Positions 44,503-56,604 of a stretch of DNA of 56,604 bases are shown here, in pieces; the first letter of the stretch is position 1, and each line of letters begins with the position of its first letter. Origin of the DNA: Ectocarpus siliculosus (Eukaryota; Sar; Phaeophyceae; Ectocarpales; Ectocarpaceae); assembly GCA_000310025.1 (NCBI GenBank), contig FN649757.1:781319-837922 (forward strand), written 5' to 3'. The position numbers were made by a program, and so were the translations under genes. Below the pieces are notes generated by a model. It worked only from the letters and a program-made list of their open reading frames with translations. It had not been told where the DNA came from and made no database searches.

Positions 44503-47500
44503 TCGGCCCAAGGCCGGCCGGAGTGTCCGACCACCGGGATGTAGCCGTGAAGTAGGACGTCAGGAGCAGAGGTCGGGGTTTTCTGACTGGGGCAGCAAGT
44601 GGACCAAGAATAGCAGTAGTTCTGTCGACCGCCCCTTTTGTCAAGGAGCAAGTCCAGATGTCGATGCGAAGAAAGGGCCACTACCGCTGGAACGAGTTTT
44701 TTGCAATGCCTGAGAGCTCACACGCCATGCGTGTTGAGACGTTGTGACTGGGTTGGACGACGCGCATTGCACACCTTCGCCGCTGGCAAACTACTGTCCT
44801 TGCCCTTGTTCCTCTCTGTCTCTGTTGTTGTCTTGTGATGCGTGCGTCTGCCTCATGCTCTGAAGTTGGCTACCTGTAGCCCGCTACCTGACGATTCACC
44901 TCTCTCTTCCGATCTGACTTATTACATGCTTTTTTGTTCCGATCTTCCTTCCATATTGCACCATTCCCTCCGCTATGTGTATTGGCAGTCTCAATCTGTT
45001 GCGTGTCTTTGTTTTTTTTTTTTCTCATGGCATGTACCTTGGTGTACCATTTTGATAAACAATCGGGTTTTTGGTGGTGAAGACAGACAAAACCGAAGAA
45101 AGTTAGTCTGTTTGAACTGCTACGTACAAGTAGTACAAATAATGTATTTAACTTCTTTTAGTCTCTATGGGTGGTGTCCCCCCTCAAAGCTTGTCTCGTC
45201 GCCGTTAGCATCGCCCTCACCATCCGGTGAAACCGAGACAAGAGAAGAGAGAGGCACTCTGGGGCCATAACCCACGGCAGACTGATGATGTGGACGGACG
45301 GGTGTTTATTGTAGCGTCTCCTCAGACAGAATCAACGAACCTTCTTTCCCCCTGCTTCTTTGGGTGTGAATGTACCACAGGCTGCACAGCGGACTGTTTT
45401 TCTGGCGAGGTTCTTTCCCGGAAGGGTCGCAGAGGAGACATCTTGGTACATATATATATATATATGCATATGTTAGACATGTTTCGGTTCTAAATTTACC
45501 ACACTTTGTTGGATACAGCGCAGTATCGTTGCCACACGTACTTGCCCTCGCTGGACACACGGTACCGATCACACGATCACACGCGCGCACAGACAGACAC
45601 ACATTCCCGTCCATCCATCCTTCCACGCTCATGGTCCTACATACTTTACTCTTCATATATATGGGCTTGGTTGCTTGAAACAATGTACATTATTATTATT
45701 CCATGCCTAGTCTACACGTACATCACTCATCTCGACAAAGCTCATTACTGTTACATTTCTCCGAAAGGCACCATGAGAGGGAGATGAGAGGGCAGTAGCA
45801 ATTTGCGGCCCGGCCCGCGAGGTTGTAAGCTTTTAAGCGGGGCGGGGTGTGGCGGGCGGGCGGGCGGGCGGATTTTTTTTCTCGACGTTTTTTGAGAACA
45901 GGCGGAGAAAGTCACAAATAAATAATGCCGCGTTTTCACCGTTTCAGAAAGACGCCGTCAGATTTCAGAACCACAAGGGTACCATTCCAGACATCAGAAA
46001 AATTAATAAGACATCAAGAAAAATCAACGAATCGTTGCTTTTTGAGAAAATCGACCGGAAACTGGCGACTGGCGACCTGCTAGTCTGCTGGTGCTGCTCT
46101 GCTGACTTTGCGTTGTGTGGCGAAAAAATACGCGACACCTCTGGCCGATGTGGACTGCAAGCCTACGCTCCTAGGAAAGAGAGAACGTAGCGGCGGGATC
46201 CTGTGAGACAGGTTACACGCGCGGCGCCCCCGGTGGTGTTGTTCTCGACATTGGTCGTCAGGTTGGTGATGTGAATGCGTTGTGTCTGCTATCATGATGT
46301 GAGAGATGGGTTCCGGCCATCGCGCTGAAGTTGAGGTATAGGGTCTTGTCTGCTCTCATCTCAGGTGCTGCGGTGATGCACCGAGAGAGAGACAGGAGGA
46401 AGAGAGAGAGAGGGGAGTGAGGAGTGGAGGCATGCCTCGACTAGAGACCCTTGTGAGGTGTCAACAGCGGCAGTCGTACTGGCTTAGACAGGGCGAGGGT
46501 GGTGTGAGCTCGGCAACAAGGCGGCACGTCTACCGAACAAGCAGTTGTGTAGTTGGTTGGCCGCTCGGCGAATCTATCTGTGATCGTCTACATAAGTCAG
46601 ATTTCCTTCTCGAACCGGAGACTGCTGCGTTTGCGCGTGCATGCATGCGTGTTGTTCATGTGGCGCCTTGTTGATTGTTGCTGTCCTCATAAGGCATGGC
46701 TACGATGCTGCCGCTAGTCATTGGTGACTTGTTTCACCCGGGTGATTGTGCAATATGAGCTCTTTCGTTTCGGACAATTTCCACTCTTGTTCTCTCCGTG
46801 TCCGGCCGGATATGTAACCGGCCGCAGCACAGCAGCATAGCCATGCGGCAGGTATGGCTGGTGTGGTGTCGTCATGCCTTGTTATTTTATTCGTCATACG
46901 CGTATTCGTAGCACACGTGTTCAATAGCTGATGGCTTCTCTCCGAGACGTGCACGTTTCCCTCGCGTGTGATATCATCGCGGCGTGCACGGGCGGCGACG
47001 CATGGCACAGGAAATTGATTCTCCACCCTCACCACAGACGACAGCGGTAAATAGACACAACGTCACACTGGCCCCAGATCCCTTCCTTCCAACTGAAAGG
47101 ACCCATTCGGTGCAACTACAACACAGCAGTAGTATGCAGACGACGGAGGGCTTGAACCTCCATAATCTCGTTCAGGAGCAGGAGATGGTGTACTCTCCGG
47201 TGCTCGCAACCCGAGCTGTCTGTTCTTTACATTCGTTCCACATGTGCAAAGGAAAGGCGCTTCCTATGCTACTAGTCTATCCCTGCCGTGAGGCATGTCC
47301 CACACGCTCCTTCGAAGACCAAGTATGAAGACGATGTTGCTGGTTCTCCTGTTTTGGGCGAAGTGGACGTTGAAATGGTTGTCGGTTTGTTTTTTGCATC
47401 GCTCTCACCACAGTTGTCGAGCTCAATCACACACCCCTACGAACCACGTTCAAAGCTACACCTGTGAATCGTGACTTCTGCTGCTCTACGTTTTTGTACT

Positions 47501-47526
47501 CGCGGCATATACTTTCACACAGCAGG
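44449..47526. other. Intergenic region between OXA1 and the YGD-repeat gene
   Basis: Both flanking genes run to the right, so this 3.1 kb holds the OXA1 3' UTR and the next promoter. It contains a short (TA)n run at about 45450-45465, a (GGGC)n run near 45855-45870, a GA-rich stretch near 46385, and one ACAGCAGTA motif (47123). Several frames of 80-140 codons exist, but none shows a domain or a convincing exon border. Confidence 0.4.
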
Positions 47527-50500
47527 ATGGACGTCGGGACAGAGAGGCCTCAACTGGCTGTGCGGCCATTCGGCGAAGGCCCAGTTGAAGGCAGCAGTAG
47601 TGCTGAGCAAGAATATGGTAATAGTAACACCAGCAGCAACGGCGGCTTGAGCGGAGAGGTGCAGCCGGCCGTTATATCGGAGGGCGAAGATAGCAGAAAC
47701 AGGTGAGTTGTAGTAATGCCCGGTGTCGTATCTATGTACATGGGTGGCGTCGAATTATGGTGTGGCTTGTGACTGCCCATAAGGGAGAATAGAGGGCTCC
47801 GGTGTCGCATCGAAGGTGCCGAGATCAAACACGGAACGACTGACAGAAGAACGAATGAAATGAACGTGGCTGGCTGAGGCACGAATCAGAGTGCTAGTGT
47901 TGAGTGTTGTACAAACACTGCTGCTGTGCGTGTTCTTATTACGGTTGAGGCCGCTTCGTAGCACCGAGCACCGACCGACCTTGCCTGGCGAAAGTTTGTA
48001 GACACAGCAATAGGATCCGCCGCTGCTGTCTGCGCGCGCTGTCATCTGTCAACTGCCAATTCTGCGTGTATCAAGGGCAAAAGATGAAATGCCTTTGCTT
48101 TTGTAAAGAAGCTGTTGTTTAACTGCAAGCGTAAGATCCTAGGACAACCATTCAAAGATACATAAAATCCGTTAACCAGCTCTCTCAGCGGTGAATCTTG
48201 CAGAGGGCGCAATTTCTGTCCTGTCTTCCGGCCAGCGCGTTGGCACTGCTGCATCGATGCTGCTGCCATTTTAAAAATATGTTTATATTTTTGCAGCGAT
48301 TGACGTGGTGTGTCCACCCGCAACCCCCCAATCACCATCTCGGGCGGTTCATAATTGTGTCTCCTTGTTTGTGTGGACTCTATGCACGAGGGCCCAAACC
48401 TCTTGATTTTGAGAAGGAGCAACACCACTCAACGCTCATCTCGGTGCTGTCATCCGCCCCCCCATTTTTCTCACCTCACGCTAGCGATTATCATGCCAGA
48501 ACAAGCGAAGACCGATACTTCACTCCCTGTTTATCTTCTACCCTGTGTGCCTATTCGACTAAAAATCACACCTTTCGCTATTTCTATATACGTGTTTTTC
48601 ATGCACCAGCCCGGGGCTCACCTGACCGTAAACAGGGAGATTGCTCGTTTGTTCCACCGTCCTCTCCGAGGGTAACCCCAAAGCACGGATTGAATACTTT
48701 ATCGCATATGTTTGCTTAATCAATTTTGCTATGTACGTAGACTACTGGTACTTTCCCTCACGTGGAGGCGGTGGCCGTACCCTCTCTGTTTGTTGTGTGT
48801 AGTTACGACTTTGTGCTTATTTTCGTCACCTGCTTTGTACAATTGCGATTTGTTTCACTCTGGAGAAATTCGAACACACAACCTAGAGCCAGGAGATGTG
48901 TACGAGGATACTATCCCAACGGCAACACTCAGCCGCGGTTATTGTTTAACCGAGCTTCGTGTGTGGTACACAATTAACTTTATAATCGAGTTGCTGAAGG
49001 GGCGGCCGTTCTCTCTCGCTATGAACAAATGAACGTATTGTGGCGAGCACAGCGGCAGAGTAGAGCAGCGGGAGACCAAAATAAAGCTCCCGCTTGGTCT
49101 TCCCTTCCTTCTGCATTACTTAATGACTTTGGCTGGTGCGTCCTACGATACCGAAAGGTGCAGTCTGACCGGCAGGCGGAATAGATGGGAGACGAAATCA
49201 CGTATTTGTATCGTATATTTTTCTTTGTCGGCCCCTTCGTTTTCTGACGACCTTCGCATGACAACAATTTGGTCCGGTTCCTGCCCTGTCTCGGACGGGA
49301 TACTTTGTCGGCGAAAAATGAGAGTATTTTCCACCAAAGGATTGTCTTACCGTAAGTGACGCAAGATAGCACACTCACAGAAGAGGGCATAGCACACCCC
49401 CAACACATCTCTCCAGAAAAGCACACCCCGTGGTGTTTTTTTTTTTTACTCAGAGAAAAACGCCAATTTATCACACCGGTGACGTAAGATAGCACACCCC
49501 CTAAAGTTACGCCGCATTTCCAGTCACGGAGCCTGATTATGGTGGCTGGTGGCAGGTTGCACGAATGTGCACAGCCCGACGTGCAAACACGAACAGGGCA
49601 CACAAGCTGGTATGCACACAAACTAGGACAATACAGAGGTTGAGGACGTAGACAACCCTCCTGACACAACCCTGCTGGAAGTGACATCTGTCGCTCACAC
49701 GGTGCCATCAACATCTGTCTGCGCCGGCGCCTCCACGGGCGACCACATCATTTTTCTCGAAGCACCCCGCCGGCAAGCCAAACGATGAGCCTCCATCAGC
49801 ACCTCCCACCACCGCAAGTGCTGCCAAAGCCCGCTCAACAGCGAGCGTCCGCCGAGGCCCGCACAACATCGTCGGTTGAGGACCGGACAACATCGTCGGT
49901 TGAGGACCGGACAACAGAGTCTGCTGAGTGTTGTGACACCCCGCTTCATTTATCACACCCCTTCAAGGAACGGTGGAGCAGGTAGATATATTATCACGCC
50001 CGCTTGGCGTATCACATCCCCCGGTTGCGGGCTCCGTCGGCGTGCACTTTATCACACCGGTAACACAAGACAGCACACCCATTCCAGGAAAGCACACCCG
50101 GTGATGGAGTTTTTTAAACTCCAAAATATTGTCACCAGGATGTGCTGTCTTGTGTCACACACGGTATTCGACCTCAGGAGTTTGACCCATCTCCCTGCAC
50201 CCGCTGAGAGCAGCGCTCCCTTCGGGTTCATCAGCACTCCTGAACGGTTGGAAATGACCAACTCAAAATCCACGACTTTTCCTCCACGAGATCCCCGACG
50301 GTGTCCCTCCGGGGCTCTCCCTCTTCCCTCCTATCGCCGATGCGGGTGGTTCTGCGGCCGCTGGGTCAACGGGCTCGGGGAGGGCGGGTCGTCGTGGACA
50401 TGGACACCCGCGTCGAGCGCACTTATCATAGGTGCTGATGAGGGCGTCCGTGTAGTCCCCCGAAACGGGGTCGATTTCAGTTCCTGGACGGCCGGCGGTT

Positions 50501-52391
50501 GACGAGGGCGTCCAGGTCCACGACGACCCGCCCTCCCCGAGCTGGTTGACCCGGCGGCCGCAGAACCACCCTTTTGTGTGGGGTGGTTGGTTTTGTTTAT
50601 GATTTAGTTTTGGCAGGGCATATCGATCTTTCCCACGCTTGAGCACAGAGGTCACAGTTGGCGCAATTTTCCACAAGTACCCACCAAAGACACGCTTCCA
50701 TCAACAACCCCGTATCCCGGCCCCCCACACGTCAGGGATACCGTGTCCAAGAAGGGGTTCCAGCGTTGGCTGAGGCCTCCTTCTCCGATACCCGGCTTGA
50801 AGAAGAAGTTCCGCAGCAAGCGCTCGAGAGGAAGTAGCCTGGACGGTGAAGTTCTGCATGCCTTGTCCGGGGTGGACCGGGAAGGAGACTTCGTGCTCAC
50901 TCCCGTGGGATCCGACGGTAACAACTATGCCGGTGATTTGGATACGAGCGCTGGCACCGACGCCTTGGACGATGCTGGTAGTGACAACAGTGGTGCAAGC
51001 GTTGAGGAAGGGGGTGTTAGTGCAGAAGCGGTAGCAGCGAACCTTAGAGGGGGGGGGAGGGGGGAAGGAGAAGACCATAGCACCGGGCAGCCGAAACGAG
51101 CGACCAAGCTCGCGAGGGGTCTGTCGAACGTGGCCCGGCGGCTCACGAAGCGGTCGGTGGGGTCATCGGAGGCGATGAGCTTAGGGAGGGATAACAGCTA
51201 CTTGCGTGCGCACGATGCTGATTTCGACGGCGATGGGCCCAGATCGTTCACCGGGGGTTGGAGCAATAGCCCAACGTCGCCGGAGCATGGCGAGAGGTGC
51301 GTAACGCTTTTCACTCATACCTTAAAAATTGGTTGCATGGTGTGCTGCAATGCTCCGTTGCTTTCATCTCCCCAGACAGTCATTTGTGGATTTGTTTCGA
51401 TGTCTGAAGGCCAGGGACTCCTTCCAAACGCCTGTCCGAATAGGGAGTGAGTGGCCTTGGTACGTGCCGTAATCTAATCAACTCTCGTGTGTCAGCGTGA
51501 GGATTTTCTCTTGTACGCATGAGCACCCCATGAGGCTACGCTAAGGGAGGATCATGCCGATGATCCCTGTCGATCAGCGTCAAAGGATCCCATAATTTAT
51601 TTGGGTGAATAGCGTGCTAGTTGTTGATGCGTAGCTTTGATGAGGTCAGCAGTGCCGACGTGCCTAGTATAGTCTACGTCCACAAGAGGCCAGAACCAGG
51701 TTCATGCTGCTGTCTTTTATCCTTATTTTTTTTTGGGGGGTGCGCACGATTCATCCTTCCACTCGGGCATTCTATGTAAGAGCGGTAGGACACGATCATG
51801 CAAGTTGCTTGTAGCGTCACTTTGGATCCGTGCGAATACCCTCGACAATGGTGTTCTCAACGCCGTCCGTTTATCTTTCGAATTTCCATCGCCTAGGCAC
51901 AGGAAATTGCCCCAAGACTGGCATTTACCTCTCACAAGCACGAGCCCCGTGACGCCCCCGATGGCGTCGCCGCCGCCGCAAGCTGACCAAGGCAGGCCTC
52001 CTCGCAGCAGCACCAGCAGCCGGCGGCCTTCTCCGACAACGAGCGGAGAAATGTTGATGCCGGGGCTTCCTCCGCCCCGAATGCCACGAATCACTCGAGG
52101 CCTCACGGACCCGGGGAGTCCGTGCGATCACCGGAGGTTCGAGGGGACTGTAACGGGCGTGGGCAGTGAATCGCGCAGGAAGGAAGATCTACTGGAAAAG
52201 GGGGGAGAAGGCGTGTGCAGGGCAGAGGCACGGGAACAGGAGGGGAAGCCGGAGGTGGCCAGAGGCCGGCGTGGGCTGTTGGAAGGGAGCAAGAGCAAGA
52301 GCCTGTCTCCGAAGGGGGGGTGGGAGGGCGTCGGGGAGAGACATCGAAGCCGCTCGGCCTCCCCAAAGCGTGTGGTAAGCGAGAGGAGACA

Positions 52392-52434
<43 letters not shown>

Positions 52435-55400
52435 GAGGAGAAAACATGACTCGTCGTTCATATCATGCAGTAGTTTCGTTTCAACACTACCGTCTCTTCA
52501 TAATCGTTTTGGGGTTCGTTGCTTTACTGTCGTCCTCGTCTTTCCGCGCGTCGTTGATCTGAATCGCCATGGCCGTTGCAAGCGCAGTCCGCACAAAGAG
52601 TGACCTGTATTTGGGGAGGGGTGGAGAGGTCGCGATGATTTTCACGATGACATCACCGCTCGCCGTGCGGGCCAACTTGCTGTGTAGAGGCATCGACAGC
52701 AGTTCATGCTCTACCGATTCTTACCAGTATACACGAATCTTCTTGAACACTGAATACTGTTGGAAGGGAAGTATTTGTCTTGTCCTGCGTATGAACCCCA
52801 AGCTGCGTCCAAAATCATAGCTCCTCGCGAGAAATGGTAGCTGGGACTGAGGAGGCGCGGATGTGGCGTGGTTAAAACCGCGTTGCCCCTTTTCAACAAG
52901 CACTGCCAAGCGTCTCTGTGCGTTGAACAACAGGTGTCGGGTGCATGCCTTCCCACTGCTATTGTGTGCTATTGATCAATCCATTCCAGAATCCCTTCAA
53001 CCGCAAGCCCGTGTCACCCTCGGGGAACGGCCAAGACCAAGAGCAAACCCAAGGCCGAGGCCAAGATGGCCAGGAGGGCCACACCGATCAAAAAATTAGC
53101 AGCTTCAACCCAGCATCACCAGTCACTACTAGCGCAACCCCGCCTTCCGACGAGGCGACAGCGGCACAAGCGACGAGCAAAGCGAAATTGAACGCCGAAA
53201 AGATTCTCCACTGACAGGTCCAAGTGTGACGAAGTCATCAAAGGCCATGTCAAGCGGGGCGACTCAGGACATGCACCAAGCGTTGTTGAGGATGTCCCAG
53301 CTGCTCCCGCGAAGGGTCCGCCCTGTGTGCCGGCGGCCCTGCCCCCGGAGCTGAAGTATGGTGATAGGCTGAGGCTCAAAGCCAGGTAGGTAGATACAAC
53401 TTTTGGATCGTCGGTGTGCCTCGCCTGTTGATTTGGTACGGTACGCTCATGAATGCTTGTAATCACCGCTTCGAACGCTTTCGTAGGCGGTGCTTGCCGA
53501 GCACTACACCACCCACTTCAGGAGCTGGTTCCTCGAGTTGCTGATTATCGGTTCCTCTGTTCCCCGGTCGTTGCTATTTTCATGTCCCACCGCCCATTCA
53601 AGACCACCGTTTCTTAGCCCCCATCGCCTTCTACGGTGCTCAATGTTGATGCAGGCCTCTTTCGCCTTCCAGAGGTCACCACAGGCCCTCCGGAGGGAGT
53701 GACATCTCAGTCGGTGCGTTGGGAGAAGGTGGTGCTAGTGGCCCAGCTGAAGGCGTGGTGGGAGGAGGCGGGGGCTTTGTCGGTTCGCTGGAGAAGGTGC
53801 AGAAGGTATCGACGAAGCTGTTCAGGAGGAGCGAGGTGGCGGTGATCAGCCAGTCCGAAGGGAAAAACGCCGCGGGATTCACCAGCTGCCACTTCAAGGT
53901 GTGCAGTCGTAGCAACGCGCGCCCCGCTGTACGTTGTCGTAGACGGCAGTAGTGTTGGTGATATGTTGCCGTTTTTTGTTCCGTGCCGATGGGAGACTCG
54001 CGGTGCTTGTGCAGTCTCCTTCAAACAAGTCTGGATGGTGGATATTTGGTGTAGGTAGTAATTGAATTGCTACTAGGTTGTCGATGCGGTGATGGTGTTC
54101 TGGAGGTGTGGGCAGCGGTGATTTCATTGCTTTCGATTTTCACAGATGTGCCCGTCGTTACCGTTGACCAGACTACTGGAGTTCTCGCTCCCCCTCTCCG
54201 GTAGGTGCTTTTGGTGAAACAACGGTCTCCTGGGTTACCGATGTGCTAAGGTCTTGGTTCAACGACCCTTTATCAATGTACATGTAGTTGTGTTTCCACG
54301 GGAGTCACCAATCCCTGGGCCAGTTGGACACCTGTTGGGTGTTTCTGTTCTGTTGCTTCATGCATTTCCCCCTTGTTTTCACGTCTTGCGTCACAGGCCG
54401 TTGACCCCGAGAACAAGAAAAAGGACGGGGACGTAGTGCGCTACGGGGATGTGATCTTCCTGGTCGACGACAGGAATTACGTGTGGAGCGACAACGTGAG
54501 AAATGTACGCCCTCGTGTTGTACAATGTATGCTACACTGCCTACTGTTGGGGTCCACCACTGGCGGTGTGCCTACTGCTGTTGCACGGGCACGTACGCTG
54601 TGATATGACTCTCATGCACGGGAGCTATTGAGTTCCGCGGCCTAGTGTGAACTGGGTAATTTGTTGATCTCACTACGGAAGAATCTGCTGTTCAACAAGT
54701 GCCGTCCTGCAGTGTCAGTATTTCGTTAGGCTTGGGCTACTGTAGTTCGTTGTGACCGTGACCCCCTGCTTGTTTGTTCCCCCCCGGCGTGCCCGAACAA
54801 TGCCTGCTTGCATCGTTGCCGGATCTGCGTCTTATGCAGGGGCATTTGTTGCCTGGGTCGTTGAGAATGAAATCCAGGGGATCGAAGCGGCAAATCGCGG
54901 TGAGCTTCAAGCCCTTCTTGGCGCCGCTGAAACTTGATGCCAACAACGAATTGCCTGCAGTGGTGTTCAGCACGCACGGATTACAGATCACGACGGTCGA
55001 GTACAGCAGCAAGGACCAGAACACCAAGAAGCGACGCACTTCTTCGAGGTGGGAGAGAGACTTTGAGGTTTCGCCGTGTTGTCTATTGACGGAAGTCTGG
55101 GTTGGACAGCAGTTTGTGAAATGTCAACTCTTTGCCTTGCTGCGACGTCTGTGGGGGCGATGACGGGAGGCTTGCTTGAATACAATATCGACTTGTCCAA
55201 TATCTGAAGACCCGGCCCTCCTTGCCCTTGCCTCTTGCTGAGCAACTCTCCTCCCTTCCCCTGCGCCGCTCCTTCTGCTACTTGACTTGGTGTTTGTCGC
55301 TAATACAACAATAGGAAGAACTTCCATGCACTGACCGCTTTCTCGAAGAAAAACAGCGGCAATCCTAGCGTCAACGGGGCGTTTCTCTGCGCAGACGGAC

Positions 55401-56318
55401 GAGGAGAGGGTGTTGTGTTTGAAGTGCATCTACCCAACGAGAGTCCCATCGGGGACCCTTCTCCAGTAGTGACCAAGGTGAACGGTGCATTGTGGCATTT
55501 TTTTTTGGGTGGGTTTCAACTCTGCTCTGTTTTCGGACTGGATCGGAGTGGGCAAGAATGATGAAGCTCTTTGGTTGTTCATGTGGCGTACACTGTACTC
55601 GTGAAATGTATGCGTGGTCTGTTCTGTTTTTTCCTCTGACGCATAGATGTTGTAGCGGAGCGAGGTGTGCTGTGAGTCAGGAGTCACCTGAGGCAGATGT
55701 AGTAATATTTTGGATAGTTTTTTTGGTTATCTACCCCGCTCTAACGCAGTACCGCCTCTCTCACGTTGCCAGGTTACGGTCCACGTGGATGAAAAGCCTC
55801 GGCTGCACGACAAGATGTCATTTCTCCCCCCGCTCTCCACCAAGGTGCAAGAGGCCCACTGGCCGTCCGAGGCCCCGACGGCCCCTCTCTCTTGCGTGAC
55901 GGCGGACGGTAGCGGTACCGGACAGGGTTCGAGCGCCTCCGGAATCAGACTAGAGGACAAAATCTCGCAAGGGAGCGAGAAGCCCCGGCCAAAGTCAATG
56001 GTATCCAAAGTTTTGCCCGTCGGGCGCAAGCTGAAAACAGCCCACAAGCGGCGGAGCAGCCTGAGCCAGAAGAGGCCAAAGAGCTCCAGCGTTGGGCACA
56101 GCCTTGGTGCGACGTCTGGACGGGGCTTCATGATGCCGGAAAGCATCCCCAGCCCTGCATGCTCTCCGACCAACTCGGAGCTTTCTCGAAGTAATCTGGA
56201 TGGAGACGACGAAGAGCTTCTTCTGTCTGAGGAAGGGGGTGCCTTTTCGGACGGAGACATGGTGGAGGGGCTTAGGTGGGGGGACTCCGTGAGGTTCAAG
56301 ATGCCCGACGAGGGGCAG
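47527..56318 (+). CDS. Large low-complexity protein with spaced [YW]GD motifs, function unknown, 3' end missing
   Basis: I do not recognise this protein. Exons joined in phase: 47527-47702, 50736-51296 and 51903-52374; then a problem region 52990-53385; then 53655-53898, 54397-54495, 54840-55048, 55315-55477 and 55773-56318. Exons 1-3 encode Ser/Gly/Pro/Arg-rich sequence with basic patches (LKKKFRSKRSRGS, RRLTKRSVGS). From 53351 onward three similar short blocks recur: ELKYGDRLRLKAR, VVRYGDVIFLVDD and GLRWGDSVRFKM. Each is the start of what may be a beta-rich module. After the second come NYVWSDNGHLLPGSLRMK, QIAVSFKPFL, FHALTAFSKKNSG and GEGVVFEVHLPNE. The last exon has basic Ser-rich linkers and an acidic DGDDEELLLSEE stretch. 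The donor at 56318 and the third block at its end suggest that further repeats lie beyond the window; reading through instead gives a stop at 56358-56360. The exon at 52990 hits a stop at 53212 while the next block is in the +1 frame. Confidence 0.6.
49351..50164. repeat. TATCACACCGGT-type repeats and hairpin element in intron 1 of the YGD gene
   Basis: Related stretches recur at 49351-49377, 49469-49500 and 50048-50080 (TATCACACCGGT, then AAGAYAGCACACCC). The last begins a hairpin. CCGGTAACACAAGACAGCAC at 50057 is mirrored by TGTGCTGTCTTGTGT and CACACACGG at 50141-50164. A perfect inner inverted repeat GGAGTTT/AAACTCC lies at its centre. This looks like a small palindromic element plus solo ends of the same family. 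Confidence 0.65.
49863..49915. repeat. 24-bp tandem repeat, two full copies
   Basis: ACAACATCGTCGGTTGAGGA plus CCGG is repeated exactly at 49863-49886 and 49887-49910, with a partial third copy (ACAAC). It lies inside the same intron as the palindromic element. Confidence 0.85.
50344..50571. mobile_element. Foldback element: ~66-bp inverted repeats around 96 bp
   Basis: The left arm (50344-50409) starts GGGTGGTTCTGCGGCCGC. The right arm (50506-50571) is its near-perfect reverse complement, with only a handful of mismatches. Both arms are very GC-rich compared with their surroundings and would form a strong stem. It lies in intron 1 of the YGD gene, 165 bases before exon 2. No coding capacity beyond arm translations was seen. 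Confidence 0.75.
52388..52432. repeat. (GA)n microsatellite after exon 3 of the YGD gene
   Basis: About 18 GA dinucleotides start shortly after the exon 3 donor at 52375. The upstream coding frame would continue through it as (Arg-Glu)n to a stop at 52447, so intron retention would give an RE-rich tail. Confidence 0.85.
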
Positions 56319-56360: not shown

Positions 56361-56604
56361 CCACTTTCGACCTGTTGAGCACGAGGTTTGCTGTAGTTGT
56401 GCTGTTTCGAAGTTGCCGAGCTGCTGTGGAAAGATGCATAATCTGAAAACCGCGACCCCTGTTGGTTCCCTCGCTGAAATTCGAAGTGGAACCATGAACA
56501 TATTGGTTACCCTGGCGGATATCATTTTTGACCATTGGAACAAACGCCCCTGTCCATCATTGAGTTGCCCCCGCGGTAGTCCAAGTCGGAAAAAGTAGAG
56601 ATCC
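56361..56604. other. Window end, presumed intron of the YGD gene
   Basis: After the donor candidate at 56319 no further exon of this gene can be recognised before the window ends. Short frames on both strands show no similarity to the preceding protein. Confidence 0.4.

Follow-up and report, generated by a model that had tools for sequence, protein, structure and literature searches.

Does the predicted protein in which short [YW]GD blocks recur, close to the end of the 56,604-nucleotide stretch of DNA analyzed here (the window), come from a real gene, and if so, what kind of protein does it encode and in what condition are its copies? The window spans C32:781319-837922, in a genome assembly that comprises 189 Mb and 492 contigs, and a scaffold gap of 1307 N opens at 56605, directly past the window end at 56604. 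The EsV-1-7 motif is a mark of brown algae, and its 150 matches in this genome (150 scored out of 880 candidates, all above the cut-off), against none in 14 control genomes, fit a brown-algal origin.

The gene carrying the blocks, hereafter the block gene, has nine exons in the window, at 47527-56318 on the forward strand, separated by GT-AG introns, and is followed by a gene for a CRAL-TRIO protein. The features are as follows.

47527..47702, + strand: exon 1, with the ATG start; donor GTGAGT, phase suiting exon 2
50736..51296, + strand: exon 2, basic/acidic low-complexity; AG/GT and phases agree
51897..52374, + strand: exon 3, Ser/Arg/Pro-rich; AG/GT and phases agree, copies in C142 and C182
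52990..53385, + strand: exon 4, with block 1 at its end; AG/GT, a single open exon in C142 and C182
53211..53211, + strand: extra base that shifts the frame of the window copy; missing in both covering copies (C142 and C182)
53348-53385, + strand: block 1, ELKYGDRLRLKAR, at the end of exon 4; an intron splits its last codon
53655..53898, + strand: exon 5, a Gly-rich linker followed by a strand-like end; AG/GT and phases agree, in 7/7 other loci
54397..54495, + strand: exon 6, carrying block 2; AG/GT and phases agree, in 7/7 other loci
54433-54471, + strand: block 2, VVRYGDVIFLVDD, in exon 6
54840..55048, + strand: exon 7; AG/GT and phases agree, in 7/7 other loci
55315..55477, + strand: exon 8; AG/GT and phases agree, in 7/7 other loci, shortened in C142
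55773..56318, + strand: exon 9, a low-complexity linker and block 3; AG/GT and phases agree, in 7/7 other loci
56268-56303, + strand: block 3, GLRWGDSVRFKM, in exon 9
inside the 1307-N gap after 56604, + strand: exon 10, 52 codons including the stop; placed from other loci
C32 past the gap, window-equivalent ~61.4-64 kb: CRAL-TRIO gene, beside the block gene, downstream

In the window copy AG precedes exons 2-9 and GT follows exons 1-9, and the exon phases agree along the chain once one base of exon 4 is dropped; with that base omitted, the initial annotation was right to propose one modular gene with phase-compatible exons. The extent it gave, 53218..56318, holds for the exons lying within it, but the gene begins well before it, near 47527, and ends with an exon past the window, in the gap. 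Likewise, the exon start placed at 53218 has to be abandoned because the extra base at 53211 splits the open frame of a longer exon, 52990-53385, and the Ser/Arg/Pro-rich N-terminus exists but is located at 47527-53347, mostly outside the extent originally proposed. Each of the seven other loci contains exon 10, which keeps its stop in the six of them that were translated, and the exon 10 of the window must therefore fall within the gap. The full ten-exon model, for which exon 10 was borrowed from C50 and one exon 4 base was omitted, comprises 3027 coding bases, i.e., 1008 aa and the stop. We also weighed a small additional exon at ~54146-54201, in the interval between exons 5 and 6, but discarded it because its phases, checked by eye, do not fit. 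Intron 1 holds an inverted repeat (window 50344-50420 / 50495-50571) with 77-nt arms that are 90% complementary, which looks like a small mobile element.

The recurrence of the blocks, which was the starting observation, exceeds shuffle expectation. In the 954-aa protein obtained by splicing the window exons and omitting the codons round the extra base, [YW]GD occurs three times, whereas shuffled versions contain it 0.098 times on average and one of 5000 shuffles reaches three. The stricter pattern [LV][KR][YW]GD.[ILV].[LF], which was drawn up post hoc from the blocks already seen, also occurs three times, and none of 5000 shuffles contained three.

The proposed reading frame bears the marks of a coding sequence. 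The pN/pS ratio summed over pairs of seven copies is 0.47 in this frame, while the two alternative frames give 0.80 and 1.44, a sum that excludes C432 and exon 4, counts only codons with a single change, draws on pairs that are not independent, and is affected by lesions in the copies, which raise pN. In the seven copies, 10 stop codons are found in frame, six of them terminal, versus 173 and 144 out of frame. Considered by exon, the ratio is 0.14-0.51 in exons 2-4 (five pairs, with a sixth pair lacking any change), 0.14-0.61 in exon 9, where 19 of 21 pairs lie below 0.6, and 0.06-0.75 in exon 10, where 11 of 15 pairs do. In exons 5-8 it ranges from 0.23 to 1.71 and is above 1 in four of 21 pairs, as is expected of decayed copies. 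These values support past coding constraint along with present decay in some copies.

The expectation that several copies exist was borne out in the genome of the window itself, where the YGD region gave at least 13 DNA matches, 94-100% identical, at no fewer than eight loci: the window, C142, C182, C196, C266, C432, and two in C50 (at 36 kb and 276 kb). Colinear similarity begins at window position 47334 in C182, at 51461 in C142, and at 53215 or 53552 in the other five loci (both in C50, C196, C266, and C432), in which exons 1-3 are missing together with some or all of exon 4. The left flank of these five is common to them and differs from that of the window, although only 1.4 kb of it is known in C432; no convincing coding sequence was recognized in it over 6 kb at C50 (36 kb) and 3 kb at C266. 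Exons 1 and 2 are unmatched in C142 as well. The only other locus with exon 2 is C182, where the exon is 98% identical without gaps. Exon 1 recurs at C32:929108-932315 and also in C182, where it carries two indels, of 4 bases and of 1 base. The C32 stretch duplicates window 47328-50488 at 94% identity and reaches the scaffold end, and the remainder of this second gene copy is absent from the C32 scaffold. Tandem units of ~2 kb bearing exons 5-7 occur in C50 (276 kb) and C432, and the later units add part of exon 4. A 121-base satellite array of ~32 copies (L028:4118-7960) lies upstream of the shortened C196 copy.

The copies arose by recent segmental duplication. In the same genome, protein searches with three queries (exons 6-9, with part of exon 9; the end of exon 9 with exon 10; and exons 1-3, with part of exon 3) recovered the near-identical loci and the second 5′ copy on C32 but turned up no divergent paralogue. 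Matches in C4 were weak (E 1.9, 4.4, and 8.0), and the first C4 stretch, when translated, looked unrelated by eye; a search of viral contigs with exon 7 gave 19 pattern matches, none of which was confirmed. The suggestion of a diversified repeat family consequently gives way to a set of recent duplicates, five of eight lacking the 5′ part and five of eight damaged. Apart from the extra base of the window, stops or frameshifts affect C142, C182, C266, C50 (276 kb), and C432. In C142, exon 3 has a 19-base deletion, in-frame stops lie in exons 3 and 5, and exon 8 is cut. C182 lacks six bases at the exon 3 acceptor besides its exon 1 indels, has lost two single bases in exon 8, and has a stop in exon 9; moreover, ~11.7 kb including a 100-N gap separates its exons 7 and 8. 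C266 has a stop in exon 5 and lacks one base in exon 10, and every unit in C50 (276 kb) and C432 lacks one base of exon 7. The exons found in C196 and C50 (36 kb), two loci without exons 1-4, showed no lesion.

Is the block gene, then, merely carried along by its neighbor? The joined downstream exons match CRAL_TRIO in Pfam with 98.2 bits and an E-value of 5.2e-28, above the curated cut-off of 22.6 bits, and the CRAL-TRIO gene lies downstream of the block gene in seven of the eight loci, the C432 contig ending before the domain exons. The pN/pS ratio of the CRAL-TRIO domain exons is 0.20 over seven copies, and lesions are few (a stop in C50 at 36 kb and, in C182, a single broken stretch), so the neighbor looks better kept than the block gene with its 0.47. 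An open reading frame upstream of the CRAL-TRIO gene shows, by eye, two hydrophobic stretches and has no Pfam match at E≤0.01. Because the extra base at 53211 sets the window copy apart from both covering copies, that copy is either a pseudogene or the product of an assembly error. It is a serious possibility, falling a little short of even odds, that the window copy is indeed a pseudogene and that the block gene was for the most part carried along in duplications retained on account of the CRAL-TRIO gene, and the frameshift, the five damaged loci, the difference in pN/pS, and the five loci that begin at window 53552 with another flank in common all agree with such an idea. A lone extra base could, however, be an assembly error within a repeated region, the low ratios in most pairs of exons 9 and 10 and the lesion-free exons of C196 and C50 (36 kb) argue for constraint on the block gene itself, even if exons 1-4 are missing in both loci, and the CRAL-TRIO gene is damaged too.

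The proximity of the two genes also raises the possibility that block and CRAL-TRIO exons form a single gene spliced from within exon 10. A possible GT donor exists inside exon 10, and the two parts stay together wherever the contig extends far enough, but the stop that closes exon 10 in every translated locus, and the phase of this donor, which by eye is mismatched to the acceptor of the first downstream exon candidate, make a fusion improbable.

We prefer to regard the locus, with a probability of about 0.5, as a real ten-exon brown-algal gene for a protein of ~1008 aa with a beta-rich core and an adaptor or scaffold role, spread by segmental duplication. The consistency of the exon chain, the frame-specific constraint, the duplication, and the lesions are the observations that carry the gene itself. 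The identity of the protein has to be sought in its domains, and the initial annotation, which recognized no named family, agrees with our scans: Pfam gave nothing above cut-off for the block gene, in a scan of exons 2-10 with all but ~40 aa of exon 4, and an NCBIfam search with the domain and with the C-terminal piece likewise yielded nothing stronger than E 0.054 and 0.17. Below the Pfam cut-offs, the domain resembled DUF7931 (E 0.037-0.17) and NQRA_N (0.12). The region of block 3, residues 12-40 of a 79-aa piece, is similar to DUF7464 (PF24263) with an E-value of 0.0018, but the similarity covers only positions 3-30 of 61, and its 18.2 bits stay below the cut-off of 27. A low-confidence, alignment-free model of exon 7 by itself (mean pLDDT 58.9, pTM 0.26) contained three strands and one short helix, which says no more than that this exon may be beta-rich.

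It had been proposed that the blocks recall the strand starts of beta-trefoil or MIR-like domains, which begin, in the case of MIR, with [YW]G-x-x-[IVL]-x-L. This proposal finds weak support in the best PDB match of the domain, an InsP3 receptor at the YGD strand. In a single-sequence search, InsP3 receptor type 3 was the best of five matches with an E-value of 0.13, followed by four trehalose-phosphate synthases (1.8-1.9). A profile built from four copies gave four matches at E≤10, every one of them to InsP3 receptor type 3 (0.032, 0.72, 0.76, and 0.77), with the alignment covering the YGD strand and the preceding residues. Between 3 and 8 of 1000 shuffles, varying with the matrix and the stretch, attained the local score of the domain against InsP3 receptor type 1, and hhalign gave an E-value of 0.0096 for one pair. 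Other results speak against the proposal. A reversed query, typed by hand and used in the single-sequence search only, had an unrelated match at E 0.12; the hhalign probability is just 4%; the match is confined to one strand of ~24-40 residues; block 3 shows no excess against receptor type 1 (z −0.1); and the DUF7931 and NQRA_N lines are equally strong. The block gene stays below the family-model cut-offs of both Ins145_P3_rec (PF08709) and MIR (PF02815), neither of which appears for the domain at E≤10, where the Pfam filters discard most weak matches, and in genome searches with the two models the window was not among the matches.

These models do respond, below their cut-offs, elsewhere in the genome, but not at the gene in the window, which does not qualify as a member of either family. 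An exon at C14:945923-948300 is similar to the N-terminus of the InsP3 receptor (PF08709, E 7.8e-4, 19.1 bits against a cut-off of 23), and a second receptor-like motif, GGDVVRLCHLRSTGFLTC, was noticed by eye ~2 kb on, though Pfam does not report it at E≤0.01. An Ectocarpus homologue is mentioned in a published article (PMC4844392). A MIR-like exon at C23:2342730-2342825 (PF02815, E 4e-5, 24 bits against 25.6) presumably belongs to an SDF2- or mannosyltransferase-like protein. A relation between the block domain and the C14 exon was considered and rejected, as their score was reached by 157 to 322 of 1000 shuffles, and hhalign gave a probability of 1.2% and an E-value of 0.042 at a place away from the YGD strand.

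Compared with the N-terminal beta-trefoil of InsP3/ryanodine receptors (PF08709), block 2 resembles a YG-containing strand of the receptor, but the block protein matches over one stretch only and shows no channel region: no helical or channel regions of the receptor were detected in Pfam scans of exons 4-10, after which the frame stops. Compared with the MIR domain (PF02815), the likeness resides in the strand start of the blocks, while the difference is the missing match to the model. A beta-trefoil fold of the central domain is a fair lead from such comparisons, but we consider it rather unlikely that the domain is a divergent InsP3/ryanodine-receptor (MIR-type) beta-trefoil without a channel, which would bind inositol phosphate or a receptor-like partner.

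If the block gene is, as we prefer, a gene in its own right, its product would begin with a long low-complexity N-terminus, Ser/Arg/Pro-rich with RS-like and basic patches, and continue with a central domain that is probably beta-rich and opened by two YGD blocks. A basic/acidic low-complexity linker would follow, whose acidic stretch precedes block 3, and the WGD block would open a short C-terminal module. The blocks probably represent the first beta-strand of repeated beta-units in the style of a beta-trefoil. Neither a transmembrane segment nor a signal peptide was seen by eye in the block protein. Its composition suggests that it is most likely a soluble adaptor or scaffold, whose folded parts would bind a partner while its charged tails would be regulated. 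The gene would have spread by segmental duplication, visibly together with its CRAL-TRIO neighbor in seven of eight loci, and this co-duplication is the only basis on which we infer a link between the two proteins. In comparisons with its own genome and viral contigs, the protein is most likely lineage-restricted and of the adaptor type, its beta-rich domain flanked by disordered tails. A literature search on general terms, too unspecific to call the gene unpublished, returned no title about it. A bolder combination, in which a soluble brown-algal protein with a highly diverged, channel-free InsP3-receptor-like beta-trefoil partners the co-duplicated CRAL-TRIO protein in phosphoinositide signaling, is at present a long shot.

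The block gene is unnamed, recently duplicated, partly decaying, and ordinary in kind. It adds one gene to those of brown algae and provides a clear case of a gene pair that was recently duplicated and then began to decay. Caged InsP3 is reported to raise cytosolic calcium in Fucus serratus (PMC4844392). If the beta-trefoil reading is true, the block protein would be a channel-free relative of the calcium-release receptor domain in a lineage for which such an InsP3-evoked calcium rise has been reported.
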